Assembly (NCBI GenBank): GCA_947644645.1
Contig: CANSAF010000002.1
Coordinates: forward strand, 79,500 to 143,499
DNA: 64,000 bases
Reading direction: 5' to 3'
Origin: an uncultured Sporosarcina sp.
GTDB taxonomy: Bacteria > Bacillota > Bacilli > Bacillales_A > Planococcaceae
Part shown: positions 10,952 to 46,826 of the stretch, piece by piece
How positions within the stretch are numbered: position 1 is the first letter of the stretch
Layout: each line of letters begins with the position of its first letter
Notes under the pieces: model-generated
Told to the model about the DNA's origin: nothing
Seen by the model: only the letters and a program-made list of their open reading frames with translations
Databases searched by the model: none
Translations under genes and position numbers: made by a program

Positions 10952-11025
10952 TTGTGAATTCGCGGCCGATTGTTGTAAACTTACATTTCCTAGTTGTGAA
11001 CTCGTCCTGTGTTATTGTAAACTCG
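10952..11025. repeat. Intergenic tandem array with 21-bp period, locus 1 (four units)
   Basis: The 11-base core TTGTRAAYTYR starts at 10952, 10973, 10994 and 11015, exactly 21 bases apart; the other ten bases of each unit differ. It lies between the cccB terminator and ftsE in a 419-bp gap that otherwise holds only the ftsE promoter region. Confidence 0.85.
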
Positions 11026-11219
11026 AAATGATTCTCTGAAGTAGGATGGTTCTCGGAACTAAGCAATGCTCTATGGATGAAAATGTCACCACTGGAAGGC
11101 TTATGATTCTTTTCTTGTAATTGTATATAATGTTGTTAAATGTGAACGAAATATGCCAAATAATACAAAGATATGGCGTTAAATGAAATATAACTGTAAT
11201 AAATTTAGACAAGAAAACA

Positions 11220-11228
11220 TGTTATACT
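11220..11228 (+). promoter_or_regulatory. Extended -10 promoter for ftsEX
   Basis: TGTTATACT, an extended -10 element 50 bases before the ftsE start; no clear -35 hexamer. Confidence 0.5.
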
Positions 11229-11278
11229 CAATATGTTGAATAAATATTGAAGTCAAAATAGATTCAGGTGGTTTTAAA

Positions 11279-11965
11279 TTGATAAAGATGAAAAATGTTT
11301 ATAAAAAATATGCAAATGGTGTCGTTGCGACGAATGGGATTAATATTGAAATTGATCGCGGCGAATTTGTGTATGTAGTGGGTCCGAGTGGCGCAGGTAA
11401 ATCGACATTTATTAAAATGATTTACCGAGAAGAAGTGCCAACCAGTGGAGAAATAATATTTGATAAAATTAATATTGCGCAGTTAAAGCAAAAAGAAGTC
11501 CCGCAATTGCGAAGAAGAATTGGCGTTGTGTTTCAGGACTTTAAACTATTACCAAAATTGACGGTATATGAAAATGTTGCATTTGCATTGGAAGTTATAG
11601 AGGAAACACCTGAAAACATTCGAAAAAAAGTAACGGAAGTATTGGCGCTTGTCGGGCTTACAAAAAAGGCGCGGATGTTCCCGAATGAATTATCGGGTGG
11701 AGAGCAGCAACGTGTGTCGATTGCCCGGTCAATCGTTAATCAGCCGGAAGTTGTCATCGCGGACGAGCCAACCGGAAACTTAGATCCAGAAACATCATGG
11801 GATATTATGGAAGTTTTCGAGAAAATTAATGCACGTGGGACGACAATTATTATGGCAACTCATAATAAAGAAGTTGTCAATACGATTCGCCACCGCGTTG
11901 TTGCCATTGAAGGCGGCATCATCACCCGAGATGAAATCGGAGGTGATTACGGTTATGAACAGTAA
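11279..11965 (+). CDS. ftsE: Cell division ATP-binding protein FtsE
   Basis: FtsE is the ATPase of the FtsEX complex, which drives activation of peptidoglycan hydrolases rather than transport. The 228-residue product has Walker A (GPSGAGKST), a Q-loop (VFQDFKLLP), the ABC signature LSGGEQQR and Walker B with ADEPTGNLD. The TTG at 11279 lies seven bases behind AGGTGG; the ATG at 11288 is too far (16 bases). The 3' end overlaps ftsX by 11 bases. Confidence 0.97.
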   Translation: MIKMKNVYKKYANGVVATNGINIEIDRGEFVYVVGPSGAGKSTFIKMIYREEVPTSGEIIFDKINIAQLKQKEVPQLRRRIGVVFQDFKLLPKLTVYENVAFALEVIEETPENIRKKVTEVLALVGLTKKARMFPNELSGGEQQRVSIARSIVNQPEVVIADEPTGNLDPETSWDIMEVFEKINARGTTIIMATHNKEVVNTIRHRVVAIEGGIITRDEIGGDYGYEQ

Positions 11966-12839
11966 TACGGTGAAAAGGCATTTCAGAGAAAGTTTTAAAA
12001 ATATCGGGCGGAATCGTTGGATGACGTTTGCGTCGATTAGCGCGGTAACCGTGACGTTATTATTAGTTGGCGTTTTTATCGTCATGATGATGAACTTAAA
12101 TAAAATCGCAACGAATTTGGAAGAAGACGTTGAAATTAAAGTGCTTGTTGACCTTGCAGCAAATGACGCAGCAGTTAAAGAGCTCGAAGAAAAATTGAAA
12201 TCAAATCCAAACCTAACCGATGTCCAGTTCTCCTCCAATGAGGAAGAGCTTGAAATTATGATTAAAGGATACGGTGAAGAGTTTGCTTTATATAAACAAG
12301 GGAATCCACTTAGGCATGTGTTTTACGTAAAAGCTGCAACACCGCAAGATACTGCGAAAGTAGCAAAAGAAATAGAAGCTTATGACTCTACTTACGAAGT
12401 AAAATTCGGTGAAGGAAAAATTGAAAAGCTATTTAACGTATTAAATACAGGTCGTAATATTGGCATTGTCTTGATCATTGCTTTATTATTTACAGCGATG
12501 TTCTTAATATCTAACACAATACGTCTAACAATTGTGGCACGAAGACAAGAAATCGAGATTATGAAACTTGTCGGTGCGACGAATAATTTTGTGCGTATTC
12601 CTTTCTTGCTGGAAGGAATTTGGCTGGGAATTTTAGGTGCATTATTGCCGATGATTTTAATTACGATTGCTTATTTCAATCTTTATGATTATATTCAGCC
12701 AAAACTAGAAGGAGAACTTTTCCAACCATTAGATAAAACACCGTTCATTTTTCAGTTGAATGGTCTATTGCTTGCGACTGGAATATTTATTGGTGTCTGG
12801 GGAAGCTTTATGTCAGTGCGTAAATTTTTAAAAGTTTAA
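11955..12839 (+). CDS. ftsX: Cell division protein FtsX
   Basis: FtsX is the membrane half of FtsEX, passing ATP hydrolysis in FtsE to an extracellular hydrolase. The 294-residue product has a cytoplasmic N-terminus, a first membrane helix at about residues 23-45, an extracellular domain (about 46-165) and three further membrane helices. ATG 11955 lies eight bases behind AGGTGA, inside the end of ftsE. The next gene encodes a coiled-coil M23 peptidase that is a natural candidate for the FtsEX-controlled enzyme. Confidence 0.96.
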   Translation: MNSNTVKRHFRESFKNIGRNRWMTFASISAVTVTLLLVGVFIVMMMNLNKIATNLEEDVEIKVLVDLAANDAAVKELEEKLKSNPNLTDVQFSSNEEELEIMIKGYGEEFALYKQGNPLRHVFYVKAATPQDTAKVAKEIEAYDSTYEVKFGEGKIEKLFNVLNTGRNIGIVLIIALLFTAMFLISNTIRLTIVARRQEIEIMKLVGATNNFVRIPFLLEGIWLGILGALLPMILITIAYFNLYDYIQPKLEGELFQPLDKTPFIFQLNGLLLATGIFIGVWGSFMSVRKFLKV

Positions 12840-12866
12840 GAGTTAAATTGAGAGGGGAAAACTACA

Positions 12867-14159
12867 TTGAGAATGCAAAAATGGGTGCTATCGATTTTGG
12901 TAGCAGTTCTTGTGCTGTCTTCAGGAATAGGAAACCCGCAAGTATTTGCGAGTTCACTAAAAGATATGAAGGAAGAAAAAAGTGAACTTGATCAAAAGAA
13001 AAAAGATTTGAATGAAAGTATTCAATCAAAAACAAAAGAGATTACGACAAATAAATCTAAAGTTGAAACGATTCAAGACAAAATTACGAAGTTAAACACT
13101 GAAGTTGAGCAAACGAATGGAAAAATTATTGCTCTACAAGAAGAAATCACAGCGACAATCGCGGAAATCGACGGTTTAAAAGCTGAAATTGATGATTTAG
13201 AGCAAAAGATTCAAGAGCGTGATGAAGTACTTCGTGAACGTGTTCGTGCAATGCAAGCAAATGGTGGAACAGTTAGTTATTTAGATGTACTGCTTGGTGC
13301 AAATAGTTTCTCAGATTTCATTGACCGAATTTCTGCAGTGAACACTTTAGTCGATGCAGACCGTACGATTATGACGGAACAAGCGGAAGACCAAAAGAAA
13401 TTAGAAGAAACGAAAAAGCTTGTTGAACAAAAACTAGCGGAATTAGAAGCAAATAAAGCAGAGTTAGAAGAGTTAAAAGCATCTCTTCAATCTCAAAAAG
13501 CTGAACAAGATCGTTTAGTTGCTGAGTTTCAAAAAGAACTTGAAAAATTAAGTAGTGAGAAAGAAAGTTTAGAAGTCGATTTACATGAAGTGCATGAATT
13601 AAGTGCAGATCTTGAAAAAGAGATTCGTGCTGAAGAAGGACGTTTAGCGGAACTTGCTCGTCAAGCGGAAGCTGCGAAAAAGCAAGCAGAATCTAATTCA
13701 GGTGGTTCATCTTCAGGTCCGGCAGTAGGTGGAGGAAGTGCACCTTCTGTATCAAGTGGAACATGGACACGCCCGACAACAGGTCGAGTGTCGTCTGAAT
13801 TCGGGAACAGAAATATTAGTTTCGCTTCTAGAAATCATAGAGGAATTGACATTGCAAACCCAGTCGGCACACCAGTTGTTGCGGCAGGTGATGGTGTAGT
13901 CGGTCGTGCGGGTACGATGGGTACATACGGAAATGTGATTATGGTTACACATTCTGTCGATGGAAAAATTTACACGACATTGTATGCGCATCTTTCAAGC
14001 ATGCATGTAAGCGTGGGACAAACTGTTTCTAAAGGTCAAACGATTGGTAGAATCGGAATGACAGGTAGAACATCAGGACCACACTTACATTTTGAATTCC
14101 ATCTCGGTGGATGGACTAATACAGGTGGAGTAAATCCAAGAAACTACGTGCCGATTTAA
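12867..14159 (+). CDS. Secreted coiled-coil M23 (LytM) peptidase, likely FtsEX-linked
   Basis: This 430-residue secreted enzyme should cleave peptidoglycan cross-bridges or peptides. It has a signal peptide (residues 1 to about 29), a long coiled coil (about 30-275) like those of PcsB, CwlO and EnvC, a Gly/Ser linker, and a C-terminal LytM domain with intact zinc motifs (HRGIDIA and HLHFE, plus the YAHLS histidine). The TTG at 12867 lies nine bases behind AGGGG. B. subtilis FtsEX acts on CwlO, which has an NlpC/P60 domain instead; here the same type of coiled coil is joined to an M23 domain and the gene sits directly behind ftsX. Confidence 0.92.
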   Translation: MRMQKWVLSILVAVLVLSSGIGNPQVFASSLKDMKEEKSELDQKKKDLNESIQSKTKEITTNKSKVETIQDKITKLNTEVEQTNGKIIALQEEITATIAEIDGLKAEIDDLEQKIQERDEVLRERVRAMQANGGTVSYLDVLLGANSFSDFIDRISAVNTLVDADRTIMTEQAEDQKKLEETKKLVEQKLAELEANKAELEELKASLQSQKAEQDRLVAEFQKELEKLSSEKESLEVDLHEVHELSADLEKEIRAEEGRLAELARQAEAAKKQAESNSGGSSSGPAVGGGSAPSVSSGTWTRPTTGRVSSEFGNRNISFASRNHRGIDIANPVGTPVVAAGDGVVGRAGTMGTYGNVIMVTHSVDGKIYTTLYAHLSSMHVSVGQTVSKGQTIGRIGMTGRTSGPHLHFEFHLGGWTNTGGVNPRNYVPI

Positions 14160-14166
14160 TCGAGCA

Positions 14167-14217
14167 AAAAGAGCGTTCTAGAAGTCTACAATGACTTTTG
14201 GAACGCTCTTTATTTTG
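14167..14217 (+). terminator. Terminator after the M23 peptidase gene
   Basis: The stem AAAGAGCGTTCTAGAAGTC / GACTTTTGGAACGCTCTTT is followed by TATTTT. It has the GTC-GAC core. Confidence 0.88.
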
Positions 14218-14305
14218 GGCGTAGGCTGGAATAAGCTGGATTGCTAGTCAATTGCGAAGCTGTTGATTAGAATATGTGGTAGAGCCTAGTTTGGGAGGGT
14301 GTTTC

Positions 14306-14956
14306 ATGTTTGTCACGAAATATTTTTTAATTGGAAAAGTGTCGATTGCTTCCTCTTGGGTCGCACTCATTTTTTCATTTATACTTGCTTACAGTGTTGT
14401 AAGATGGAAATATGGAAAGTCCTCCGCCGATTTATTAAGTGATGCGATTTTTTATTTTATTATCGTCTGGAAATTATCGGTCGTGTTGACGGATTTTAAA
14501 ACGGTCATTCAATTTCCATTGTCGATCATTTATTTCCATGGGGGCACGACGGGTGTTCTATTAGGAATTATTGCTGCGGCTGTTAAAGTTTTTTGGGAAA
14601 TTAAAAGAAAGCAATTGACGAATCCACAAATGATGGGGTTATTACTCGGTACGGTCTGGATATTATCTATGTATCAAGTTTTCATCGTATTGGTGAATGA
14701 AGGTCCAGTATTAATTCGGTTCATGACAGGCATTGTATTTAGCGTTTTTGGCTTAGTTATTTTATTGTTCATCAAGCAATTTGAAAACTTGCCGTATCAA
14801 CTTATGATGTTAATGGTTGTGCTGCATTTATTTATGAGTGCTTTACAACCAGCAGGCCTTATACAAACGCCGATGTTTGTTGCAATTAGTTTAGGCATTG
14901 TACTGGCAATGCTCGTTTATTTTCAAGAAAAAAATGATGTGGAGGCAATGCATTGA
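14306..14956 (+). CDS. Polytopic membrane protein of unknown function, paired with a thioredoxin
   Basis: This is a 216-residue protein with about six or seven membrane helices. I do not recognise the family firmly. A segment with FHGGTTGVLLG and a preceding helix layout recall prolipoprotein diacylglyceryl transferase (Lgt), but the catalytic residues expected in Lgt are not obvious, so a distant, non-catalytic relative is only a possibility. ATG 14306 lies seven bases behind GGGAGG. The stop overlaps the start of the next gene, a membrane-anchored thioredoxin, by four bases. The two probably act together in extracytoplasmic thiol chemistry. Confidence 0.6.
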   Translation: MFVTKYFLIGKVSIASSWVALIFSFILAYSVVRWKYGKSSADLLSDAIFYFIIVWKLSVVLTDFKTVIQFPLSIIYFHGGTTGVLLGIIAAAVKVFWEIKRKQLTNPQMMGLLLGTVWILSMYQVFIVLVNEGPVLIRFMTGIVFSVFGLVILLFIKQFENLPYQLMMLMVVLHLFMSALQPAGLIQTPMFVAISLGIVLAMLVYFQEKNDVEAMH

Positions 14957-15516
14957 AGAAAATAATTGGTTATGTTGTTGCATTACTAGTAGTTGGCACG
15001 ATGGTTGTTTTAATGTTTAAAATGAATGGATCTAGTGAACAACCAGCGCCCAAGGAAGCAGCAGATGAAACGAATGTGATTGGATTGGATCAAGGAAATA
15101 TTCCACCTGATTTTGAGCTTACGACTTTTGAAGGTGATGTCATTCAGCTTTCTGAGTTAAAAGGGAAAAAAGTGATTTTGAATTTCTGGGCATCTTGGTG
15201 CGGTCCATGTAAAGCAGAAATGCCACATATGCAAAATTATTATGAGAATCATGCGGCAGACGATAATGTAGAAGTCATCGCAGTCAATATGTCGACACAG
15301 GAACGTGGCGGCATGGACGGGGTGCAAGCGTTTATTGAATCATACGGTTTAACTTTCCCAATTCCGTTAGATAAAGAAGGAACAGCTACGCTGGATTATG
15401 AAATTTTCACAATTCCAACGACATTTATGTTAGGAACGGATGGAACCTTGGCGCAAAAAGTGATTGGCCCGATGGACGAAAAAAACATTCGGACGTTAGT
15501 GGATCAGTTAGATTGA
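14953..15516 (+). CDS. Membrane-anchored TlpA/ResA-like thiol-disulfide oxidoreductase
   Basis: This 187-residue protein has one N-terminal membrane anchor (about residues 5-24), a short linker and an extracytoplasmic thioredoxin fold. The active site is WCGPC in the segment NFWASWCGPCKAEMPHM, and a cis-proline region IPTT follows. ResA reduces apocytochrome c cysteines and has CEPC; the CGPC here is more thioredoxin-like, so the substrate is uncertain. The TTG at 14953 lies seven bases behind GGAGG. Confidence 0.9.
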   Translation: MKKIIGYVVALLVVGTMVVLMFKMNGSSEQPAPKEAADETNVIGLDQGNIPPDFELTTFEGDVIQLSELKGKKVILNFWASWCGPCKAEMPHMQNYYENHAADDNVEVIAVNMSTQERGGMDGVQAFIESYGLTFPIPLDKEGTATLDYEIFTIPTTFMLGTDGTLAQKVIGPMDEKNIRTLVDQLD

Positions 15517-15527
15517 TTTGATAGGAG

Positions 15528-15570
15528 TAGGTTGTTTGGAAGGGAGACTTTCTGAACGACCTTTTTTTAA
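15528..15570 (+). terminator. Terminator after the thioredoxin gene
   Basis: An imperfect stem (AGGTTGTTTGGAAG / CTTTCTGAACGACCT) is followed by seven T. Confidence 0.8.
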
Positions 15571-15583
15571 TGGTTCAAGTTTC

Positions 15584-15646
15584 TACTTATGAGAATTAAG
15601 CTGGAACTTCGGGGAATTCATATAAAACTTCGGACAATTCATCTTA
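15584..15646. repeat. Intergenic tandem array with 21-bp period, locus 2 (three units)
   Basis: AACTTCGG starts at 15605 and 15626 and AATTCAT at 15615 and 15636, exactly 21 bases apart. A degenerate unit in phase starts at 15584 (TACTTATGAGAATTAAG). Confidence 0.75.
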
Positions 15647-15719
15647 GTTATCGATAAAACCAATGAAACTTGTTTTAATCCTCACTTGCTGTTCATATAG
15701 TGAACGAGGGAGGGGTAGG

Positions 15720-17162
15720 ATGCGTAAAAGTCGGTTGTTGTTGATGAGTTTAGCTGTTGTTGTTGTGTTGGGTGGCGCTTTTTTTTATATGAATGGGGCG
15801 AAAGGGAGTAAGCAGAAAGCTGAGCCTGTGCCGCCGAATGCTTTTAAGGTGATTGACGAGGCGTATTCGATTATTCAAAAAGAAGGCGTGCATCCGGTTG
15901 ATGGTGAAGGGTTAATTGAAGGAGCGCTGCGTGGGATGGCGGATGTGATTGGGGATCCGTATAGCACATATTTATCGGAAGAAGAAGCGGCGGCGCACCG
16001 GGAGTCGCTTGCGAGTGAACGGATTGGTATTGGAGCTGAGATTACACGGTCTAAAGGGAAGTTTGTGATTGTCGCGCCGTTAAAGTCTTCGCCGGCAGAT
16101 CAGGCGGGATTGCAGCCGTATGATGAAATTATTCGGATTGACGGGGAAAATATTAGCCATTTAACTTTGCAAGAAGTTGTGAAAAAGATTCGCGGAAAGC
16201 AAGGGACTACTTTACAATTAACGATTTATAGACCAGATATGAATAAACATTTAGAAGTGTCAATTGTTCGAGATGCGATTCCTGTTGAGACGGTTGCTTA
16301 CGAAATGTTGAATGCGAAAGAGAAAAAAATCGGTTACATATCGATGTCAACGTTTGGAGAAGAAACTGCGGAGGAATGGAAAGTTGCCACAGATTCTGCC
16401 TTGAACGCTGGATCTGAAGCTTTAATTGTCGATGTGCGTGGTAATCCAGGTGGGTATTTGTATAGTGTTTCGCAAATTGTGAGTAGTCTCGTCCAGGAAG
16501 ATGCTGTGTTTGCGTATATGGAAGATGCGAACGGGGCGCTTACACCATTACTTGCGGAGGATTCTGAAGAACTTGTTTTTCATGAGAAATTGAAAGGGAT
16601 TCCAGTCGTTTTATTGCAAGATAAAGGCAGTGCTTCAGCGAGTGAAGTATTAAGTGGTGCGTTAAAAGATTTGAAGCGTTCGATGATTATGGGGACGGAT
16701 AGTTTTGGAAAAGGAACGGTACAAGACTCATTTGATTTATCGAATGGTGGAGAAATGAAGCTTTCTACGCATAAATGGTTGACGCCGAAAGAGCAGTGGA
16801 TTCATGGGAAAGGGATTGAACCTCATTTAGTGGTAGAGCAAAATCCATTGTTTGGTGAACATATTCGATTGGTTACGGAGAAATATGAAGCGGGCGATTA
16901 TCATGATGATATCGCTTATGCGCAAAGATTGTTGAAAGGTTTAGGCTATAAAATTAAACGAGATGATGGTTATTTTGATGATGCGACGGAAAAAGCGATT
17001 GTGGAGTTCCGCCAAAAATTAAAATTGGAAAACAATGATGTTATGGATCGTGCCTTTTTCATTGCATTAAAAGAAGAAGTAGAAACTTTCCAAATGAAAA
17101 AGAAAAATGATCAGCAACTGCAAATGGCATTGGATTATTTGCTTCATGAATTAAAAGAATAA
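15720..17162 (+). CDS. ctpB: Carboxy-terminal processing protease (S41), CtpB-like
   Basis: CtpB-type proteases are secreted serine proteases; in B. subtilis CtpB acts in the intermembrane space of the sporulating cell on the SigK checkpoint. The 480-residue product has an N-terminal membrane anchor (residues 5-23), a PDZ domain (about 95-170), the S41 catalytic domain and a C-terminal peptidoglycan-binding domain (about 400-450). Catalytic residues are visible: serine in GSASASE, and lysine and glutamine in GKGTVQ. ATG 15720 follows AGGGAGGGG. Position behind ftsEX and before minJ matches B. subtilis. Confidence 0.93.
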   Translation: MRKSRLLLMSLAVVVVLGGAFFYMNGAKGSKQKAEPVPPNAFKVIDEAYSIIQKEGVHPVDGEGLIEGALRGMADVIGDPYSTYLSEEEAAAHRESLASERIGIGAEITRSKGKFVIVAPLKSSPADQAGLQPYDEIIRIDGENISHLTLQEVVKKIRGKQGTTLQLTIYRPDMNKHLEVSIVRDAIPVETVAYEMLNAKEKKIGYISMSTFGEETAEEWKVATDSALNAGSEALIVDVRGNPGGYLYSVSQIVSSLVQEDAVFAYMEDANGALTPLLAEDSEELVFHEKLKGIPVVLLQDKGSASASEVLSGALKDLKRSMIMGTDSFGKGTVQDSFDLSNGGEMKLSTHKWLTPKEQWIHGKGIEPHLVVEQNPLFGEHIRLVTEKYEAGDYHDDIAYAQRLLKGLGYKIKRDDGYFDDATEKAIVEFRQKLKLENNDVMDRAFFIALKEEVETFQMKKKNDQQLQMALDYLLHELKE

Positions 17163-17216
17163 TAAAATGAATCTCCAATCAATAGGTGGCTTATTGCTCG
17201 TGAATGTAGGATAAAA
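17163..17216. repeat. Post-stop repeat element, short degenerate copy
   Basis: This 54-bp copy begins TAAAATGAATCTCCAATCA immediately after the ctpB stop codon and ends GTAGGATAAAA. Ends match copies at 32424-32640 and 37102-37163. Confidence 0.65.
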
Positions 17217-17317
17217 GGTAGAAGATTCAGATAGAGGTGAAATCTACTCAGCAAAGACGTTCATAATTTGATACAATAGAAGAAATCTTTGTTGTTGTAG
17301 AGGACGGTGATATTTGG

Positions 17318-18487
17318 ATGGTGGGGGAAATATTTAGTAATCTATTTTTAGCGATTACATTCTTTTTATTTAATCCACTTTTTTGGATAGCTTTATGTAT
17401 GGCAGTATGTGTCGGGTATTTCCGAGTGAAAAAGGAAAGGAAAAGTTATCGAATTCGCATGTTGCCAGGATTAACGGAGTTAAAAACGATTTTATCGGAG
17501 TCCTGGTTACATGCGCTCATTCTTTCCATTTTAATTTCGGGAATTGGCCTCGTTGTTGATATAGGGTGGTTAGTGTTACTCGCGATTGTTTCGCTAGTTT
17601 TCCTGTTCACCTTCAATTTCAAACTCACTTCGCCAATCTATATGGCGTCGTTGGCGTTTGGAGGGCTGTTTTTAGTTCAGAGGTTCGTCCCTGATTTTAC
17701 TATTTACGGATGGCAAGTGCGTGAAATTGACTTTTTAGGGTCACTCGCAGTAACAGTGGCGATTATTTCCGGATTATTATTAATTGCGGAAGGTCGTTTA
17801 ATTGGTCGATATGGTGCGAAAAATAGTTCAACATATTTAATAGAGACGAAGCGCGGGTTAAAAGCGGGCGTTTTTAAAATGAAGAAATTGTGGATGTTGC
17901 CGATTTTATTTGTCGTGCCGGGAGATATGATTCATGCATATTTACCGTATTGGCCGCAATTTACATTCGATGAACAAGCCTTTACTTTTGTTCCGTTTCC
18001 GTTAATCATTGGCTTTTCTCAAATTGCACGTGCTCAGTTTCCAGAGAAAATATGTCCGAAAATTGGTTATGGAATTGTTTTCACTGGTGTCGTTGTTTGT
18101 GCAGCAGGTGTGGCTGCGTTATGGATGCCGATTTTAAGTATTGCAGCCTTATTAGCGGGGGTACTCGCGCGAATTGCGATTTCGGTTGCGATTTCAATTC
18201 GCGAGCGAAAAGATCATTTTGTGTTAGCACCCCAATCAAAAGGCATTGTTGTGGCAGGTATACTTCCAAACTCACCGGGGGAAAAAATTGGTTTATTACC
18301 GGGTGAATCGATTCGCTCTGTTAATGGGCAAGCTGTTCACAATGAAAAAGAATTATATAGTGCGATTCAAGTAAATGCGGCACATTGCCGTTTACAAATT
18401 ATTGATCGTAACGGGGAAATTCGACTCGTACAACAAGTGGTTTATCGTCATGACCATCATCGACTGGGCATATTGGTCGTGCAGTAA
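17318..18487 (+). CDS. minJ: MinJ-like division-site placement membrane protein with PDZ domain
   Basis: MinJ bridges DivIVA and MinCD in Bacillus, preventing division near poles and recent septa. The 389-residue product has about seven hydrophobic segments over residues 5-290, then a PDZ-like domain (about 300-385, including GIVVAGILPNSPGEKIGLLP). Length, topology and position behind ctpB fit B. subtilis MinJ. The ATG follows GGTGA at seven bases. Confidence 0.88.
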   Translation: MVGEIFSNLFLAITFFLFNPLFWIALCMAVCVGYFRVKKERKSYRIRMLPGLTELKTILSESWLHALILSILISGIGLVVDIGWLVLLAIVSLVFLFTFNFKLTSPIYMASLAFGGLFLVQRFVPDFTIYGWQVREIDFLGSLAVTVAIISGLLLIAEGRLIGRYGAKNSSTYLIETKRGLKAGVFKMKKLWMLPILFVVPGDMIHAYLPYWPQFTFDEQAFTFVPFPLIIGFSQIARAQFPEKICPKIGYGIVFTGVVVCAAGVAALWMPILSIAALLAGVLARIAISVAISIRERKDHFVLAPQSKGIVVAGILPNSPGEKIGLLPGESIRSVNGQAVHNEKELYSAIQVNAAHCRLQIIDRNGEIRLVQQVVYRHDHHRLGILVVQ

Positions 18488-18511
18488 TTCGTTCGATTAG
18501 GAGAATTTTCT

Positions 18512-18775
18512 ATGATAGATTTATTTATTACGAAGTTCATATTGGCGCTATTTGCACCAGCACTACTCGTTGTCTTTTTCACACGTGTGACTTTTCACCA
18601 TATCGTTGGCTTAATTTTAACATTAAGTCTCGTAGCAGCCTCTGTTTATGCAGGCTACACGCATCATTGGGCGCTTTACGTCGTAGATGCATTGTCTTTA
18701 ACAACGGGGTTTTGGTATGCAAAAGGAATGGTAGAAAGAGCAAGGGCAACGGAAAAAGAAGAAGAAGGTTGGTAG
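18512..18775 (+). CDS. csbA: CsbA-like small membrane protein (DUF2198)
   Basis: This 87-residue protein has two or three membrane helices and a charged C-terminal tail. The segment LVVFFTRVTFHHIVGLILTL resembles CsbA of B. subtilis, a SigB-controlled protein of unknown role encoded between minJ and uvrBA. The 3' end is unusual: the last codons form the 5' arm of the terminator. I see no convincing SigB promoter here; it may be read from minJ. Confidence 0.82.
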   Translation: MIDLFITKFILALFAPALLVVFFTRVTFHHIVGLILTLSLVAASVYAGYTHHWALYVVDALSLTTGFWYAKGMVERARATEKEEEGW

Positions 18776-18813
18776 GAAAGTCGAGAACAAGACTTTCTTA
18801 TCAGCTTTTTTTT
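18768..18813 (+). terminator. Terminator overlapping the csbA stop codon
   Basis: The core GAAAGTC / GACTTTC is extended by pairing of GGTTGGTAG (end of csbA) with TTATCAGC, followed by eight T. Confidence 0.82.
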
Positions 18814-18817
18814 GCGT

Positions 18818-18882
18818 GAATTTAGCCATATGTAGCATGAACTCGGGCAGCAGTTATAAGAACTCATCCCCTTCTCCAAAGA
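18818..18882. repeat. Intergenic tandem array with 21-bp period, locus 3 (three units)
   Basis: GAATTT at 18818, GAACTC at 18839 and GAACTC at 18860 are exactly 21 bases apart. It lies between two converging terminators. Confidence 0.7.
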
Positions 18883-18887
18883 CTCTA

Positions 18888-18930
18888 CAAATGCCCGGAA
18901 AGTCATGCACTCAGACTTTCCAGGCAAGCT
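18888..18930 (-). terminator. Terminator after azlD
   Basis: On the minus strand the stem GCCTGGAAAGTC / GACTTTCCGGGC is followed by ATTTGT. It has the GTC-GAC core; the T-run is weak. Confidence 0.7.
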
Positions 18931-18932
18931 CT

Positions 18933-19241
18933 TCAGATAAAAAGACTATAAACTGCTAAAATACCAATTGTTCCAAGGACGACGGTCATGACGCTTCCGC
19001 CTAAAAATGCGATGGCAAAAGATGTAATGAGTCCGATGATGCCGAATAATAGATTGCCTTCTTGTACGAATAAAATTGCCGGGAAAATGAGTGCGCCGAG
19101 TACGGCATAAGGAATATTTCGCAAAACACCGGAGACGATTGGTGGTAACTCTTTACCTTCTAAAAAAACGAGTGGAATCATTCGGGGAATATACGTCGCA
19201 AGTGCCATTCCGAGAAGCATCCACCAATAAGTTGTACCCAT
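18933..19241 (-). CDS. azlD: AzlD-type branched-chain amino acid exporter subunit
   Basis: This 102-residue small membrane protein with three or four helices pairs with AzlC. The pattern YIPRMIPLVFLEGKELPP near the N-terminus is typical of AzlD. Together with AzlC it exports leucine-type or other amino acids or analogues. The start codon shares one base with the azlC stop. Confidence 0.88.
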   Translation of the reverse strand: MGTTYWWMLLGMALATYIPRMIPLVFLEGKELPPIVSGVLRNIPYAVLGALIFPAILFVQEGNLLFGIIGLITSFAIAFLGGSVMTVVLGTIGILAVYSLFI

Positions 19242-19966: not shown

Positions 19967-20109
19967 ATTGTCACAACTTTCTTATATTATTTTATTCAAT
20001 TATACTATAAAATTCAAAAACTTCATGAATTCTCGATGAAAAACGTGGAAAATCACAAGAATTGGGTATACTTATTGTAGAGACTGGTGTTTTTGGGGAG
20101 GGAAAATCG

Positions 20110-30821: not shown

Positions 30822-30822
30822 C

Positions 30823-32426: not shown

Positions 32427-32640
32427 AGTGAAACTTCAATCAGTAGGGGGCTTTATCCCTCGCTGATACGAAAGAACATAGGCTAAGTTCGTCACGTCCT
32501 GATGCCTTCGCCTATGTGACCAACATCCTGTTGCCCCGAACCAATCGGGCTTTTACAGGCAGTTGTTCTCCTACATATCTTTACTACATTTGCTTGAATC
32601 TTAAAGTGGGAATCTTACTGCCTGTTAATGCGGGATAAAA
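32424..32640. repeat. Post-stop repeat element, long copy, predicted structured
   Basis: This 217-bp element starts at the stop codon TAA of the amylase-like gene (TAAAGTGAAACTTCAATCAG) and ends GCGGGATAAAA. Internal pairing includes AGGGGGC/CCCT near the 5' end, CATAGGC with GCCTATG, CCCGA with TCGGG, and ACAGGCAG with CTGCCTGT over about 60 bases. Copies at 17163 and 37102 share both ends but lack the middle. Confidence 0.75.
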
Positions 32641-37647: not shown

Positions 37648-38580
37648 ATGAGCGCTGGTTTAATAGGCGTCGGGAAATTTGTGCCGCCATATAAGCTGAC
37701 TAACGAAGAGCTAGAAAACCGTATGGATACTTCTGATGAATGGATTCGTACGATGACAGGAATTGAAGAAAGACGCATTGCAGATGATGAAACGGATACG
37801 TCTGCTATGGCGTATTTTGCTGCGAAAGACGCGATTGAAGATGCTGGATTACAACCGGAAGACATCGATTTAATCTTAGTGGCAACGGTCACACCAGATC
37901 GACCCTTCCCAGCTGTTTCAACGATGATTCAACATAAATTAGGCGCAACAAATGCTGCTGCTATGGATATTTCGGCTGCATGTTCAGGATTTATGTATGG
38001 CATTATTACGGCCAAGCAATTTATCGAGACAAATGCATACAAACATGTATTGGTCGTAGGTGTTGAAAAACTTTCTAAAATTATGGATTGGGAAGACCGT
38101 AATACAGCTGTTCTTTTCGGTGATGGGGCAGGTGCGGCAGTAGTCGGGCAAGTAAGCGAAGGCCGCGGTATTTTATCTTTTGAACTAGGCGCAGATGGAT
38201 CAGGTGGAAAGCATTTATACCAAGATGAATATATTCAAATGAATGGACGCGAAGTCTTTAAGTTTGCCGTTCGTCAAATGGGGCAATCCGCGGTAAATGT
38301 TATTGAAAAAGCAGGCTTAACGAAAGATGAAGTCGATTATTTAATTCCACATCAAGCGAATATTCGTATAATGGAAGCATCTCGTGAAAGACTAGAATTA
38401 CCAATTGAAAAAATGTCCAAAACGATTCATAAATACGGCAATACATCGGCTGCATCTATTCCGATTTCACTTATTGATGACTTAGCGGATGGTAAAATTA
38501 AAGATGATGATGTTATTGTATTTGTTGGATTTGGTGGCGGTTTAACTTGGGGCGCAGTTTGCCTTCGTTGGGGAAAATAA
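37648..38580 (+). CDS. fabH: 3-oxoacyl-ACP synthase III
   Basis: FabH condenses acyl-CoA primers with malonyl-ACP to start fatty acid synthesis; in Bacillales it chooses branched primers. The 310-residue product has the catalytic cysteine in AACSGFMYG, histidine in PHQANIRI and asparagine in GNTSAASIP. It is first in a FapR-controlled operon with fabF. Confidence 0.97.
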
Positions 38581-38623
38581 AACAATTATCAAAATGACTT
38601 GATCAATGAAAGGAAGTATAGAC

Positions 38624-39862: not shown

Positions 39863-39865
39863 GGG

Positions 39866-39921
39866 AGGCTGACAAGAAAGTCATAGAGCGTGACTTTCTT
39901 GTCGCCTCGTTTTTTTTTCGT
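39866..39921 (+). terminator. Terminator after fabF
   Basis: GGCTGACAAGAAAGTC pairs with GACTTTCTTGTCGCC, then CGT9. It has the GTC-GAC core. Confidence 0.9.
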
Positions 39922-39942
39922 TTTTGTGAAAGGGGAGAGGTG

Positions 39943-39998
39943 ATTCTCTAAAGTTCGGAGGTAATTCTCCTAAGTTCAGGTGTTATTCGCCTAAGTCA
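39943..39998. repeat. Intergenic tandem array with 21-bp period, locus 4 (three units)
   Basis: ATTCTCTAAAGTTC at 39943, ATTCTCCTAAGTTC at 39964 and ATTCGCCTAAGTC at 39985 are exactly 21 bases apart. On the other strand the units read GAACTTNGGNGAAT, related to locus 2. Confidence 0.78.
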
Positions 39999-40088
39999 AA
40001 AAGATTCTCCTTCTAAAAAAACACCCCCTCTTCAAAGACTAAATCACCTGCAATGGCGCATATAGTCTATGAAAAGGGGGATGTTTTT

Positions 40089-41525
<1,437 letters not shown>

Positions 41526-41575
41526 CGTCAAAGCTTTTTATATAAGGAAATTTCGAATTTATTTTAATTAGTTGT

Positions 41576-41604
41576 ATTATAATTCTAATTCTATTTTTAT
41601 GCAA
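41576..41604 (-). promoter_or_regulatory. SigA promoter of the trpS leader
   Basis: On the minus strand TTGCAT, 17 bases, TATAAT; start near 41569. Confidence 0.8.
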
Positions 41605-42038
41605 CTAATAATCTTTTGATGTTCAAGAAAAAAGGTTTCGTTTTCATTTTATTAGGGGACAATAAGAAACAAGGAAAAGATTTATTTTCAATCTTTTTTG
41701 AAACCTTTTTCGATTTCAAACGTACTATTAGTGAAAGCAAAAATCATTTTCAATACAATGTGACTAAATGAGAATATGCAAAAATAGTAAAACAGATGTT
41801 TATAAAAAAAGCTCGGCGGGTATAACAGTTGAAGAATCGATTTATAACAGAAAAAACGCCATAAAATCAATTATATTGCTAAAATGTGACGTTGTATGAT
41901 TATTTTCAAATTAATTTTAAAAAGCTGTTTTAATCATTAAGGAAATTGTGTATAATAGAACTAAGGAACTTTAGTTTACAATTAATCTAATTTAATGATA
42001 AATAAAGAACGAACCGATTCGAAAGGAAGTGTCAGTGT
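41605..42038. other. AT-rich spacer between trpS and spx
   Basis: No gene is supported in these 434 bases. The only element I can name is a candidate spx promoter: TTTTAA at 41928-41933, 17 bases, TATAAT at 41951-41956. In B. subtilis spx has several stress promoters, so more may be hidden here. Confidence 0.55.
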
Positions 42039-42437
42039 ATGATGGTAACATTATTTACGTCACCGAGCTGTACGTCATGTAGGAAGGCAAAAGCATGGCT
42101 GGAGGAACATGATATTCCGTATACAGAGCGAAATATTTTTTCCGAACCTTTGAACATCGATGAAATAAAAGAAATACTACGTATGACTGAGGACGGGACT
42201 GATGAAATTATTTCAACTCGTTCAAAGATTTACCAAAAATTAAATGTAGATGTTGAAAGTTTACCGCTTCAACGCCTTTATGAATTAATACAGGAACATC
42301 CAGGGCTCTTAAGAAGACCAATCATTCTTGATGAAAAGAGACTGCAAGTAGGGTATAATGAAGATGAAATTAGACGGTTCCTCCCACGAAAAGTAAGGGC
42401 ATATCAATTGCTTGAAGCAAGGCGCATGGTTAACTAA
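42039..42437 (+). CDS. spx: Redox-sensitive RNA polymerase-binding regulator Spx
   Basis: Spx binds the alpha subunit C-terminal domain of RNA polymerase and activates thiol-stress genes. The 132-residue ArsC-fold product is almost identical in pattern to B. subtilis Spx: the redox switch CTSC near the N-terminus, [18 protein letters not shown] and [10 protein letters not shown]. SpxH, encoded about 5 kb downstream, is the ClpXP adaptor that keeps Spx low. ATG 42039 follows AAAGGAAG. Confidence 0.97.
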
Positions 42438-42448
42438 GTAAATGAATT

Positions 42449-42507
42449 TAAAAGCTGATAGGGAGGAGATTGTAAATTCCGAATACCTATCGGCTTTTCT
42501 CTTTCCC
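42449..42507 (+). terminator. Terminator after spx
   Basis: AAAAGCTGATAGG pairs with CCTATCGGCTTTT across a loop of about 23 bases; a T-rich tail follows. Confidence 0.75.
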
Positions 42508-42671
42508 TTGCATTCGTGCAGAATGTTTTCTACAATGACTTAAATGAGATTTGGCATAGAAACCCTTACAAAAGTCGAGGAGTCATCATATAGTAAGTAA
42601 GAGGCGTTGTAGGTGAAGGACATTCAAATCGTCGGAATTTAAATATTGGATACAGGGAGGGAGAGATTAGA

Positions 42672-43328
42672 ATGGAAATAGAACGTATTAATGACGATAC
42701 TGTAAAGTTTTTTCTGTCATATGTTGATATAGAAGAGCGTGGATTTACACGTGAAGAAATTTGGAATAACCGTGAAAGAAGCGAAGAACTTTTTTGGGAA
42801 ATGATGGACGAAATTAATGAACAATCAGATTTTGCCGTAGAAGGTCCGCTTTGGATTCAAGTGCATTCGAAAAATGATGGCATTGAAGTAACCGTCACAA
42901 AAGCGGTTGCAGATAATGACGAACTACTCAATTCTCCAATGTATAATGAAGGGCTGAATAATGTATTTAAAGAGCAATCGGACGGTACATTTGAAAGTAT
43001 AGAGGATCTTTTAAGAAATAGTTTAGAAACAGATGGCGAATGGGCTGAAAACACATTTATTTTCAATGAATTTGAAGACGTCATTCAAATTGCTAGCCGC
43101 ATGCATCAGTTTCAAGCGAAAACAGCCTTATATGTGCATGAGGACGACTATTATTTACATGTCGAATACGATTTAGATTTGATGACGAATGAAGATAAAA
43201 CGAATATGTTTAGCGTCTTATCTGAATTTGCGCGTCCAGCTAGTATGACAATCCATAGACTTCAAGAATATGGAAAAGTCATCTTTGACAAAGATGTATT
43301 TACACAAATAGAAAAATACTTTAATTGA
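42672..43328 (+). CDS. mecA: Adaptor protein MecA
   Basis: MecA delivers ComK and other substrates to ClpCP. The 218-residue product has the N-terminal substrate-binding domain (MEIERINDDTVKFFLSYVDI, then GFTREEIWNNRERSEELFWE), an acidic linker and the C-terminal ClpC-binding domain. It follows spx as in B. subtilis. Confidence 0.95.
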   Translation: MEIERINDDTVKFFLSYVDIEERGFTREEIWNNRERSEELFWEMMDEINEQSDFAVEGPLWIQVHSKNDGIEVTVTKAVADNDELLNSPMYNEGLNNVFKEQSDGTFESIEDLLRNSLETDGEWAENTFIFNEFEDVIQIASRMHQFQAKTALYVHEDDYYLHVEYDLDLMTNEDKTNMFSVLSEFARPASMTIHRLQEYGKVIFDKDVFTQIEKYFN

Positions 43329-43429
43329 TAGATTGATTTGAAACGTTTTAGAGAGTGTTATATTCTAAAGCGTTTTTTTATTTGTATTCTAGTTGGAATT
43401 TTCTTATAATTGAAGCGGAGGTGGTCGAA

Positions 43430-44575
43430 ATTTTAATTGCTAAAACAAATGAAGGTAATTATGTTCAGCTCATCGGACGCATATCGAAAGAAGATTTAAA
43501 AAGTATGCGTAAATCATTAACGTTTTATTGTCCACAATGTCAGGAACAGGTTTTATTGAAAGTTGGAGAGTTTAAAATTCCCCATTTTGCTCATGTCCGA
43601 CATTCAACTTGCCAGTCTTTCTTTTCGGAAGGTGAATCTGCCGTTCATTTAGCGGGTAAGCAGCAATTGTACACATTTTTTCAGCGGCATCATTTGACTG
43701 TACAATTAGAACCTTTTCTAGAAAAGCTATCTCAACGTCCAGATTTACTTATTGAAACACCTACCGAGCAAATTCCAGTAGAATTTCAATGTAGTTCTAT
43801 CTCGACTTCCGAAATTGCGCGAAGAACAGCAGGTTATGAAAAGTTTTCACTAAAACCCATTTGGATTTTACAGACGCCTAAACAGCTCCAACAATTTCCC
43901 CAAGGCGCGATGATTTACTCCCTCTCTCGTTTTGAAGAAAGTTTTTTGATCCATTCTACGATGGGACAAACTTTACTTTTTACATATGATGCTTATTCGA
44001 GAAAATTCCACTACGTTAGTTTTCTGATGCATATAGAAGGTCGGAAATTTATCGGGAATCATCGTACACTTTCCTTAGAAAATCAGTCTTTCCCTTTTCT
44101 GCTTCCTAAAAAATTAACAAAAGATGAGCTTCAACATTATTATGCACTGTATGCTTCTTCACGCCTGAAATTTTTACGAAATCGAATTCTGTATAATCGA
44201 AAGGGGATTAACGATTCTTTTTTACGAAATTGCTATCAGTTACGCATCGTTCCAAGTGAATTGCCTTTATGGATTGGCGCACCCATTACATTTGGCATGA
44301 TTTTTAAGGAGCATAATTGTGAATGGCAACTTGCGCTATTAAATTTTATTCATAAAAATAAATTGAAAATCGATGAAGTTACTGCGCAAGATCTTTATGA
44401 ATTCGCCTATGAATACGGAAATTTGGATCGTCTTGCGATATTGGCTTTTGAAAAGTATATAAAACTACTAATCCGATTGGGAATTACTTCTGTTTATGAT
44501 AAATTATCAGAAGAAGAATTTCGAGAAAAATTATTGGATTACTTGCAAAGTGAAGTGAAAATTGAGAAAATATGA
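43430..44575 (+). CDS. coiA: Competence protein CoiA-like nuclease, apparent ATT start codon
   Basis: CoiA is a competence-linked protein with a restriction-endonuclease-like core. The 381-residue product has a zinc-like segment (FYCPQCQ ... HFAHVRHSTC) and the nuclease core RPDLLIE ... IPVEFQCS. GGAGGTG at 43417-43423 is six bases before ATT 43430, and the ATT sits where family members have their first methionine (pattern M-L-x-A-x-T-x-x-G). The in-frame GTG 43421 lies inside the ribosome site; the next upstream candidate (43355) has no ribosome site. ATT initiation is the simplest reading. Confidence 0.8.
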   Translation: MLIAKTNEGNYVQLIGRISKEDLKSMRKSLTFYCPQCQEQVLLKVGEFKIPHFAHVRHSTCQSFFSEGESAVHLAGKQQLYTFFQRHHLTVQLEPFLEKLSQRPDLLIETPTEQIPVEFQCSSISTSEIARRTAGYEKFSLKPIWILQTPKQLQQFPQGAMIYSLSRFEESFLIHSTMGQTLLFTYDAYSRKFHYVSFLMHIEGRKFIGNHRTLSLENQSFPFLLPKKLTKDELQHYYALYASSRLKFLRNRILYNRKGINDSFLRNCYQLRIVPSELPLWIGAPITFGMIFKEHNCEWQLALLNFIHKNKLKIDEVTAQDLYEFAYEYGNLDRLAILAFEKYIKLLIRLGITSVYDKLSEEEFREKLLDYLQSEVKIEKI

Positions 44576-44617
44576 GTGGTTCGCAACTCGAAGTAGTTGA
44601 AGTTGAGGAGGATGGAA

Positions 44618-46429
44618 ATGTCTAAAAATAAATTATTAACACGTGATGAAGTGAAGGTTGAAGAAACATGGCGTCTTGAAGATATTTTTCCAACAGATGC
44701 AGAGTGGGAAAAAGAGTATGAGTCAGTAGCGGAGTACGCTAAGCGCGGTGCTACTTATGAAGGGACATTAAAAAACGGTTCGGCTGCATTGCTAGAAGCG
44801 TTAACGTACCGGGATGCTTTACTACAAAGACTGCGTCGATTAGGTGTTTATTCGCATTTGAAATCTGACCAAGATACGACAAACAGCTTTTATCAAGCGA
44901 TGGATGGCAGAATGAAAACCTTATTTGTCAACGTATCGACGACATTGTCTTTCTTTTTACCAGAATTATTATCAATTGAAGAAGCAACTTTAAATGAATG
45001 GATAGAAAATCACGAAGGCTTGAAATTGTATGCGCATGAATTGGAAGAGTTAAATGCGATGCGTCCACATGTATTGCCAGCGGAACAAGAAGCACTACTC
45101 GCACAATTATCGGAAGTAACGGATAATCCTTCAACGACATTTAGCATGTTAAATAATGCAGATTTAACATTCCCGAAAGTGAAAGATGAAGACGGGGAAG
45201 AAGTTGAGTTATCGCATGGTCGTTATATCGGATTTTTAGAAAGCGATCAACGTTCTGTTCGTGAAGAAGCGTTTAAAGCGATGTATTCGAAGTACGGCGA
45301 GTTTAAAAATACATTTGCATCGACTTTATCTGGAAATGTCAAAGGCAATAATGTTAACGCCAAAATTCGTAATCATGCATCAGCACGTGCGGCAGCGATG
45401 TCAAATAATCATATTCCTGAACAAGTGTATGAAAACCTAGTGTCAACGATTAATAAAAACGTGCACTTACTTCAACGTTATGTAGCACTTCGCAAAAAAG
45501 TTTTTGAATTAGACGACTTGCATATGTGGGATATGTATGCGCCGCTCGTTCAAGATGCAAATATGAAATACACATACGAAGAAGCCGCACAAACGATGCT
45601 AGAAAGCTTCCATCCACTTGGCGATGAATATGTATCAATCGTAAAGGAAGGTCTCGACAATCGTTGGGTAGACGTACGTGAAAATGTTGGTAAACGCTCA
45701 GGCGCTTATTCATCAGGGACTTATGGAACGAATCCATATATTTTAATGAATTGGCATGACAATGCGAGCAATTTATTTACGCTTGCGCATGAGTTCGGGC
45801 ATAGTGTCCATAGTTATTATTCGCGTAAATATCAGCCATTCGTCTATAGTGGCTATTCTATTTTTGTAGCGGAAGTTGCATCTACTGTGAATGAAGCAAT
45901 TTTAAATGATCATTTATTGAAAACAATTGATGATGAACAACAACGCATTTACTTGTTGAACTATTGGTTAGATGGGTTCCGCGGTACGGTCTTCCGTCAA
46001 ACAATGTTCGCGGAATTCGAGCATTTAATCCATCAACTAGATCAAGAAGGCGTGGCGCTCACAGCTGAGAAATTAACGGAAGAGTATTACGCGCTGAATA
46101 AGAAGTACTTTGGTGAAGATATGGTCATCGATGATGAAATCGGATTAGAATGGGCGAGAATTCCACATTTCTATTATAATTATTATGTTTATCAATATGC
46201 GACAGGTTATAGTGCCGCTGTTGCATTAAGTAACCAAATTTTATCTGAAGGTGAACCAGCAGTTGAACGCTATATTAACCATTTCTTGAAAGCAGGTTCT
46301 TCAGATTATCCGATTGAAGTGCTGAAAAAAGCAGGTGTCGATATGACAACGTCACAACCAATCGAAGAAGCATGCCGCGTCTTCGAGGAGAAATTAAATG
46401 AGTTAGAAGCTCTTTTATTAAAAAAGTAA
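44618..46429 (+). CDS. pepF: Oligoendopeptidase F (M3 family)
   Basis: PepF is a cytoplasmic zinc metallopeptidase degrading oligopeptides. The 603-residue product has the active-site HEFGH (LAHEFGHSVHS) and typical M3B segments such as YSSGTYGTNPYILMN. ATG 44618 lies six bases behind GAGGAGG. It follows coiA, as in B. subtilis. Confidence 0.97.
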   Translation: MSKNKLLTRDEVKVEETWRLEDIFPTDAEWEKEYESVAEYAKRGATYEGTLKNGSAALLEALTYRDALLQRLRRLGVYSHLKSDQDTTNSFYQAMDGRMKTLFVNVSTTLSFFLPELLSIEEATLNEWIENHEGLKLYAHELEELNAMRPHVLPAEQEALLAQLSEVTDNPSTTFSMLNNADLTFPKVKDEDGEEVELSHGRYIGFLESDQRSVREEAFKAMYSKYGEFKNTFASTLSGNVKGNNVNAKIRNHASARAAAMSNNHIPEQVYENLVSTINKNVHLLQRYVALRKKVFELDDLHMWDMYAPLVQDANMKYTYEEAAQTMLESFHPLGDEYVSIVKEGLDNRWVDVRENVGKRSGAYSSGTYGTNPYILMNWHDNASNLFTLAHEFGHSVHSYYSRKYQPFVYSGYSIFVAEVASTVNEAILNDHLLKTIDDEQQRIYLLNYWLDGFRGTVFRQTMFAEFEHLIHQLDQEGVALTAEKLTEEYYALNKKYFGEDMVIDDEIGLEWARIPHFYYNYYVYQYATGYSAAVALSNQILSEGEPAVERYINHFLKAGSSDYPIEVLKKAGVDMTTSQPIEEACRVFEEKLNELEALLLKK

Positions 46430-46438
46430 TTATATGAA

Positions 46439-46488
46439 GAAACCCTTTATACTTATATTGAAATATATAGGTGTAAAGGGTTTTATTT
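46439..46488 (+). terminator. Terminator after pepF
   Basis: AAACCCTTTATACTTATAT pairs with ATATAGGTGTAAAGGGTTT, then TATTTAT. Confidence 0.85.
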
Positions 46489-46538
46489 ATGGGTAATAAT
46501 TATATTTATATAGAAAAAAATAGGAAGAATTCCAACCA

Positions 46539-46601
46539 ATTGTGACAATCATGTTAAATTCATTGTGAAAAGTTGCCCTATCTATTATTTCGTGATAAAG
46601 T
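46539..46601 (+). promoter_or_regulatory. roxS promoter with tandem ATTGTGA sites
   Basis: ATTGTGA at 46539-46545 and 46562-46568 (23 bases apart) resemble ResD sites. TTGCCC at 46573-46578, 17 bases, and TAAAGT at 46596-46601 form a plausible promoter starting near 46608. Confidence 0.55.
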
Positions 46602-46607
46602 AAGGAT

Positions 46608-46722
46608 GTGAAATAAATCACATACCAAACATACACCCCTTTTGTTTGAACGTGAACATTTCTCCCATTCCCTTTGAATAAGAGCATCCGAATCCCCCCC
46701 AGGATCCGGATGCTCTTTTCTA
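46608..46722 (+). ncRNA. roxS: RoxS/RsaE regulatory small RNA
   Basis: The spacer between pepF and spxH is where Staphylococcus carries RsaE (B. subtilis RoxS). The sequence shows the 5' segment GTGAAATAAATCACAT with CAAACATAC, the C-rich seed CACCCCTTTTGTTTGAA, then TTTCTCCCATTCCCTTTG, and a perfect 11-bp terminator stem (AAGAGCATCCG at 46680-46690 with CGGATGCTCTT at 46707-46717). RoxS represses central-metabolism and oxidoreduction mRNAs by pairing its C-rich loops with ribosome sites and is controlled by ResD and Rex. The palindrome TGTGA-N6-TCACA at 46607-46622 may be both a Rex-like site at the start and the RNA's 5' hairpin. Confidence 0.9.
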
Positions 46723-46753
46723 ATTTATTGAGATAAGAAATCTTGAATTCAAG

Positions 46754-46826
46754 GCACTGAAAAGTAGAGGTCAAGCACTGAAAAATCATCTCGGGGCACT
46801 GAAAATCTGCCCCAATGCACTGAAAA
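46754..46826. repeat. Intergenic tandem array with 21-bp period, locus 5 (four units)
   Basis: GCACTGAAAA starts at 46754, 46775, 46796 and 46817, exactly 21 bases apart, with 11 unrelated bases between copies. It lies between the roxS and spxH terminators. Confidence 0.9.

Follow-up and report, generated by a model that had tools for sequence, protein, structure and literature searches.

Intergenic repeat arrays with a unit of about two helical turns behind terminators in a Sporosarcina genome and its relatives

Why should short intergenic repeats that differ in sequence from one locus to the next keep nearly the same unit length? The question is raised by the window, a stretch of 64 kb from an uncultured Sporosarcina species, in which an earlier note had described five unrelated arrays, each with unit starts exactly 21 bases apart and each next to a terminator. 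All five were found where it had placed them, and the genes flanking them were of housekeeping types. Array 1 (10952..11025, plus strand) consists of four TTGTRAAYTYR units of the AACTC family with a period of 21, starting at 10952, 10973, 10994, and 11015, and its TGTRAACTC type recurs at L152:6891. It follows the intrinsic terminator hairpin (10875..10916, plus strand) of a gene at 10536-10859, identified as cytochrome c-like by a protein family check. Array 2 (15584..15646, plus strand, period 21) has the core AACTTCGGNNAATTCAT in two good units at 15605 and 15626 and a degenerate one at 15584, lies behind an intrinsic terminator at 15529..15562 (plus strand), and has relatives at L167:8440 and L155:3436. 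Array 3 (18818..18882, plus strand, period 21), situated between convergent genes, includes exact GAACTC copies at 18839 and 18860 and a decayed GAATTT at 18818; taken singly, it is approximately at chance level (lag score 9.6). Array 4 (39943..39998, minus strand) sits behind the terminator of a ketoacyl-synthase (fabF-like) gene and has three units starting at 39943, 39964, and 39985, which read ATTCTCCTAAGTTC on the plus strand and GAACTTAGGAGAAT on the minus strand. Array 5 (46754..46826, plus strand) is composed of four exact GCACTGAAAA units with a period of 21, starting at 46754, 46775, 46796, and 46817, and is flanked by the convergent pepF-like (44597-46429) and yjbH-like (46876-47685, Thioredoxin_5 family) genes and their terminators. 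Arrays 1, 4, and 5 were clear-cut.

A hairpin with a T-run precedes each of the five arrays, in agreement with the claim that all adjoin terminators; those before arrays 1 and 2 were listed by a terminator scan of 10800-19000, while those at arrays 3, 4, and 5 were read by eye. The hairpin of array 3 is absent from the scan list, and its T-run begins several bases past the stem. To call the arrays unrelated was too strong: arrays 2 and 4 appear to belong to a single family present on both strands (AACTTCGGGGAATTC and GAACTTAGGAGAAT) and AACTC is common to arrays 1 and 3, so that the window holds approximately three families rather than five.

Period 21 was also enriched across the genome. In a sample of 863.5 kb including the window (approximately a quarter of the genome, with 440 intergenic regions), the ungapped self-similarity of the intergenic regions was scored at each lag. 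Lag 21 gave 30 segments in 24 of the 440 regions, as opposed to 1.88 on average and at most six in 100 first-order Markov shuffles, a comparison that the earlier note had proposed and that came out in its favor. The other lags from 15 to 30 yielded a mean of 2.3 and a maximum of six segments, and the signal at lag 42 was a harmonic of lag 21. The coding control displayed a three-base rhythm, with 143 runs at lag 21 versus 88-121 at other multiples of three. Genes were called by a simple open-frame script that may swallow stop-free 21-bp arrays (as at L348), terminators were called by a simple rule, and one genome per species was sampled.

Individual cores were then counted as pairs throughout the genome. 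All 13 pairs of GCACTGAAAA, on seven contigs, were spaced at 21 (17-25 allowed; none in the reversed control). For CYTAARKT, the family of array 4, 27 of 32 pairs were at 21, four at 19, and one at 26 (16-26 allowed; five in the reversed control), and for GAACTC seven of ten were at 21, two at 19, and one at 23 (19-23 allowed; none in the reversed control). The claim of a step of exactly 21 therefore holds as the most frequent value, while steps of 19 and 23 in this genome and a period of 20 in some families of the sister species depart from it.

Intergenic regions of the sister species contained arrays that shared the 20-21 bp geometry but were built on other cores, as a look at these spacers suggested by the earlier note revealed. 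In 400 kb of G181, segments of period 20 or 21 were found in 25 of 210 intergenic regions, with at least six cores (CGCTCRT, GCATAAA, CACAACGTAA, TTTACCACCGA, GAACTC, and TTCAATAGATA), and a few of the weaker segments appeared to be coding. Array segments were fewer in G161, occurring in seven of 203 regions. Among 20 stretches from other Planococcaceae genera, of which one was only 1.3 kb long and seven had been placed around known matches, lag-21 arrays were accepted in eight, namely five of the seven placed stretches and three of the remaining 13; A+T-rich matches in L347 and L361 were set aside, as was a weak segment in L358. A further placed stretch, L348, included a long array (6898-7761) that the script called as an open frame. 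Of six named Bacillales loci, lag-21 segments were present in L149 (a record of S. luteola MER 9, in which 2,001 bases match G175, a member of the window's genus, with 100% identity, in keeping with the genus Sporosarcina) and L135 (a record of Neobacillus mesonae, with two lag-21 arrays of the core TATCTGCGAG), and none were found in L102, L050, L066, or L046. A GAACTC scan of the genome collection says little on distribution, as many of the matches listed were outside the called spacers or resembled simple repeats.

The stop-free array of L348 gives some color to an origin in coding repeats or their remnants, for which 21 bp would correspond to seven codons. However, period-20 families and 19-bp steps would break the frame, the variation within five arrays follows no three-base pattern, and the arrays lie past terminators. 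A coding origin, which the earlier note had itself raised as a challenge, is therefore extremely improbable.

A comparison of cores with the bases between them demonstrated what is kept within an array. Cores measured 6-16 bp with 4-15 bp between them, and the distances from core to core were 19, 20, or 21 bp, then sums thereof, with few others. Among adjacent CTTTRGRCG pairs under 30 bp, 125 of 126 were at 21; extending the limit to 70 bp (140 pairs) added 13 at 41-42 and one at 32. The six-base motif [AG]AACTC, which also matches by chance, was more scattered, with 8 of 34 adjacent pairs at 21. The CTTTRGRCG spacers included 91 distinct sequences with a mean identity of 46%, and the means for the AACTC and CTGAAAA spacers of the genome under study were 35% and 41%, while the spacers of other families were less diverged (54-63% identity). 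In the AACTC, CTGAAA, and GCATAA families, most spacer positions carried 0-0.5 bit in an information profile where the seed bases equal 2 bits by construction. The core was thus retained and the remainder variable, as had been claimed for the window arrays. Neutral divergence of this depth would be expected to have left more changes in spacer length.

The variant core CTTTAGGCG offered an example of spread. In G183 it formed 43 pairs, distributed over six places; G085 had one pair, and the six other relatives searched had none. Since CTTTRGRCG pairs of every kind numbered 304 in G183, CTTTAGGCG is a minority form there (43 of 304), and it is read as having spread inside one species with the rest not displaced.

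The earlier note had also proposed that the cores face one side of the helix. A unit of 20-21 bp does approximate two turns, but strict phasing is weakened by the period-20 families and the tolerated 19-bp steps. Spacings of one or three turns (10-11 and 31-32) are rare, and the constraint therefore resembles the footprint of a repeating unit more than helical phase alone. Curvature by phased A-tracts was rejected, as many cores, examined by eye, have no A-tract.

The arrays occupied a characteristic place relative to genes. Measured from 3' gene ends, the median distance to the array start was 66 bp in the genome under study, 53.5 bp in G181, and 54 bp in G161; measured from 5' gene ends, the corresponding values were 120.5, 130, and 99 bp. 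The 3' medians fall approximately where a terminator ends, with terminators detected by a crude rule, and several convergent arrays, inspected by eye, fill the whole distance between the two terminators. In G181, divergent regions made up none of the 25 array regions versus 45 of all 210, and convergent regions 8 of 25 versus 25 of 210. Similarly, divergent regions accounted for 2 of 22 array regions versus 84 of 440 in the own genome, and for 1 of 7 versus 53 of 203 in G161.

This position directly behind terminators might suggest RNA elements, in which motifs of the read-through transcript would bind a small RNA or an RNA-binding protein, or aid Rho-dependent termination. The strand relative to genes was nevertheless mixed, both in the array list of the own genome and for CTTTRGRCG, with ten convergent, seven tandem antisense, three tandem sense, two divergent, and three edge cases. 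Predicted fold energies were ordinary, with z between -1.6 and +1.2 for the 12 strands of the window arrays and one more array, and RNA binding does not obviously account for a step of 21 bases. An action at the RNA level is thus unlikely, and the mixed strand and ordinary folds favor an element that acts at the DNA level.

Orientation was uniform within contigs of G178, where, among the pairs listed (100 of 118), all 75 on contig 1 were on the minus strand and all 25 on contig 2 on the plus strand. Replication polarity was considered as a cause and set aside: the rows listed for G122, between 0.1 and 2.3 Mb, were all on the plus strand (82 forward and 5 reverse in total), and in the genome under study the AACTT family was mixed inside one contig. 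The G-C skew, computed on three 2.5-kb pieces of contig 2 of G178, displayed no clear direction. Hopping of arrays between neighboring spacers was likewise rejected for the apparent cases at 67-70 and 309-311 kb in G178, which turned out to be arrays split by transposase genes, with the domains of two proteins checked; a further pair lies at 378-379 kb.

The fixed core, the fixed unit length, the diverged spacers, and the indifference to transcription direction suggest rows of binding sites. Tentatively, and with a likelihood somewhat short of even, the arrays are interpreted as putative binding-site rows for one or more fast-evolving, sequence-specific DNA-binding proteins with a footprint of approximately two turns, located behind intrinsic terminators. 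Such proteins would assemble side by side, each covering 19-21 bp, and the rows of sites, placed immediately after intrinsic terminators and frequently where two genes converge, would gain or lose whole units through slippage or unequal exchange. Selection would hold the core of 6-16 bp and the unit length while the bases between drift, and the recognized core would shift between species, with several families coexisting per genome. The likeliest role would be local and architectural: proteins coating the DNA between transcripts could form a boundary or roadblock that stops polymerase escaping from leaky terminators, and a coated stretch in that position would leave genes unblocked. The geometry, the constancy of core and unit length beside variable spacers, the position behind terminators, the recurrence of a core at many loci of one species, and the differing arrays in a conserved slot were observed; we infer the existence of the protein, its cooperative packing, and the boundary function. 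This interpretation is consistent with the lag-21 excess, the pair spacings found when gaps were loosely bounded, the diverged CTTTRGRCG spacers of fixed length, the low information between cores, the few one- and three-turn spacings, the position behind 3' ends, the absence of divergent array regions in G181, the mixed strand, the ordinary RNA folds, and the spread of CTTTAGGCG in G183. Against it, the coexistence of several cores in a genome calls for as many proteins or for a single, highly flexible one, CTTTAGGCG remained a minority even in G183, and the uniform orientation per contig in G178 is not predicted.

Turnover of arrays was observed when the same slot was compared between sisters. 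In a search of 41 genomes, 30 loci were taken for each of the yjbH-like and fabF-like genes, and an array was counted within 700 bp downstream if it had a period of 20 or 21, or the harmonic of 40 or 42, and a score of at least 14, a scale on which array 5 of the window scores 13.9. An array was present downstream of the yjbH-like gene in 14 of 29 sister loci, where YCATGACAGTT, GCCATGA, CGCTCRT, GCTTTRGRCGC, or ACTGTCCGATA replaced GCACTGAAAA, and downstream of the fabF-like gene in 5 of 29 sisters; some sister species had none at either slot. In the slot between the pepF-like and yjbH-like genes, the distance from the first T-run to the right-hand terminator, recognized by pattern in 17 of 30 loci (with far-off and probably wrong matches in L236 and L248), was 17-28 bp in L232, L233, L235, and L247. 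It reached about 580 and 870 bp in L253 and L246, respectively, most of it array, and 128-503 bp in the array-free L251, L254, and L255, which held a different dispersed repeat. The long arrays of L246, L250, and L253 contained near-identical units, short arrays elsewhere were decayed, and higher-order repeats of two units were observed at lag 40 or 42.

The strongest rival of the binding-site interpretation is that the arrays are selfish or neutral minisatellites, a bacterial counterpart to satellite DNA, born by slippage and tolerated between terminators and promoters, which would pass from slot to slot through recombination or some unknown copying process and whose core would serve the amplification or copying machinery rather than the host. 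Near-identical long arrays beside decayed short ones, the presence or absence of arrays and the differing cores at one slot, the filling of that slot by a different dispersed repeat, the insertion sequences inside the G178 arrays, and the two-unit repeats would all be expected of such elements. Neutral decay, however, should blur core and spacer equally and alter length, while cores and length are kept, and a common unit of 20-21 bp in families unlike in sequence needs an extra cause; a minisatellite nature is accordingly judged quite possible, if doubtful. Some of the same observations count against binding sites, as the near-identical units of L246 and L250 reveal an amplification that needs no function, and single arrays appear dispensable, given that insertion sequences interrupt those of G178 and that some sisters carry none at either slot. 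The earlier note had offered sites for an architectural protein and a spreading tandem repeat as explanations, and the evidence is compatible with either.

The geometry of the proposed binding-site rows has a parallel in plasmid iterons and partition-site arrays, in which direct repeats follow one another at about two turns of the helix and one protein unit binds each repeat, the units packing along the DNA. The arrays are likewise direct repeats with a unit of about two turns, and these systems might serve as a model for the mechanism. This resemblance also raises the prospect that the arrays are decoys or relics of plasmid or phage iterons, that is, chromosomal replication or partition sites titrating or recording invaders. 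Iterons belong to plasmids and phages, with rep or par neighbors, whereas the arrays are chromosomal and spread over many loci with many cores, and those of the window are flanked by genes of housekeeping types. Two long arrays had no BLAST match among 72,556 plasmid and 50,697 phage records with the low-complexity filter on, and pattern scans of viral contigs returned no matches for three cores and three raw matches for TGACAGTT. Dimers of CCTAAAGTT occurred in 82 viral stretches, and 74 of 86 pairs among the stretches listed (80 of 82) were spaced at 21; these were taken for coding, since 21 was the sole multiple of three allowed and L463, when inspected, was coding. An origin as iteron decoys or relics is thus very unlikely.

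A wider claim, plausible but rather unlikely, is that the arrays form a satellite-like class in Planococcaceae and, among Bacillaceae, at least in Neobacillus mesonae, with a conserved unit length and a species-specific sequence, serving as platforms for rapidly co-evolving DNA-binding proteins. In this class, cores would be common to many loci, the arrays would fill inter-terminator slots, and the proteins would cover or delimit the DNA between transcripts. If a protein reads the arrays, it would be either a bacterial chromosome protein that evolves fast or a new safeguard for ending transcription; if none does, the arrays would provide a bacterial model of satellite DNA, and the small size of the genome would make its rules of spread testable. 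So many intergenic array families with a constant geometry amid sequence turnover are unexpected in compact bacterial genomes, and stop-free arrays risk being mistaken for genes.

Among known systems, CRISPR repeats and spacers each span some 20-50 bp, which differs from cores of 6-16 bp with 4-15 bp between them. A search of the open-access literature, with most subscription journals outside its reach, found no description of a class of two-turn arrays. Repetitive extragenic palindromes and palindromic units are described as palindromes of 20-40 bp folding as hairpins (PMC3733652), and the 12 strands folded here had ordinary energies. The TAACTGA heptamer repeats of Beggiatoaceae are abundant intergenic direct repeats for which a binding role has been proposed, yet they comprise a single heptamer lying mostly a few bases upstream of starts, while the arrays have units of 20-21 bp behind 3' ends (PMC4679880). 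Minisatellites and small dispersed repeats, the latter described as about 20 bp long, tandem, and possibly mobile (PMC2884548), resemble the arrays in their tandem units of approximately 20 bp, intergenic location, and copy number varying between species. Minisatellite units are given there as 90% alike over their whole length (PMC2884548), whereas in the arrays the core alone is alike and many families have one unit length; whole-unit likeness was seen by eye in L246 and L250 and was absent from the window arrays and from the CTTTRGRCG spacers.

The nearest described kind that was found is the STAR elements of staphylococci. These are intergenic direct repeats of a conserved core with variable spacers at species-specific places, they expand and contract, and their function is unknown (PMC3532100), all of which recalls the arrays, which are likewise intergenic, occupy different loci in each species, and have locus-specific spacers. 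The STAR motif, T(G/A/T)TGTTG(G/T)GGCCC(C/A), is described there as a GC-rich 14-bp sequence whose copies are separated by some 40-44 bp (PMC3532100), while adjacent cores in the arrays are 19-21 bp apart, and it had no match in the 863.5 kb of the own genome. STAR elements thus represent one motif, whereas the arrays include many unrelated cores in units of 20-21 bp behind terminators. A spacing that is kept while the repeated core changes from species to species points to an undescribed class of chromosomal repeats.

Among the matches listed for G178, a relative's genome with arrays of a CTTTRGRCG core (100 of 118 pairs; 75 on contig 1 and 25 on contig 2), the pairs were 100% on the minus strand in contig 1 and 100% on the plus strand in contig 2. 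No pair was present among these listed matches from 672 kb to the end of contig 1, or from the start of contig 2 to 617 kb. Arrays of contig 1 were split by transposase genes at approximately 66-70 kb (stretches L394, L397, and L407), and likewise at approximately 308-311 kb (L411 and L414). These transposases were of the integrase-core and Mutator types, and the spacers were similar on either side of the genes.

At the sister loci around the yjbH-like gene, the downstream spacer contained an array in L249, L253, and L256, and was occupied by a different dispersed repeat, CGCTTTCCGCGGGCG-like, in L251, L254, and L255. In the Neobacillus mesonae record L135, spacer repeats of period 51 (1-544, ~5940-6130, and ~7250-7450) adjoined the 21-bp arrays. 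The 21-bp array at 6898-7761 of L348, from another Planococcaceae genus, reads as an open frame of 287 codons with further open frames overlapping, and such arrays may appear as hypothetical proteins in automatic annotation.

Two RNA elements within the window matched Rfam families. A Bacillaceae-1 small RNA (RF01690, 51.5 bits), of a family without a function known to us, was found at 32467-32534 on the plus strand, and a T-box leader (RF00230, 126 bits) was found at 41324-41540 on the minus strand, upstream of the minus-strand gene at 40252-41385.
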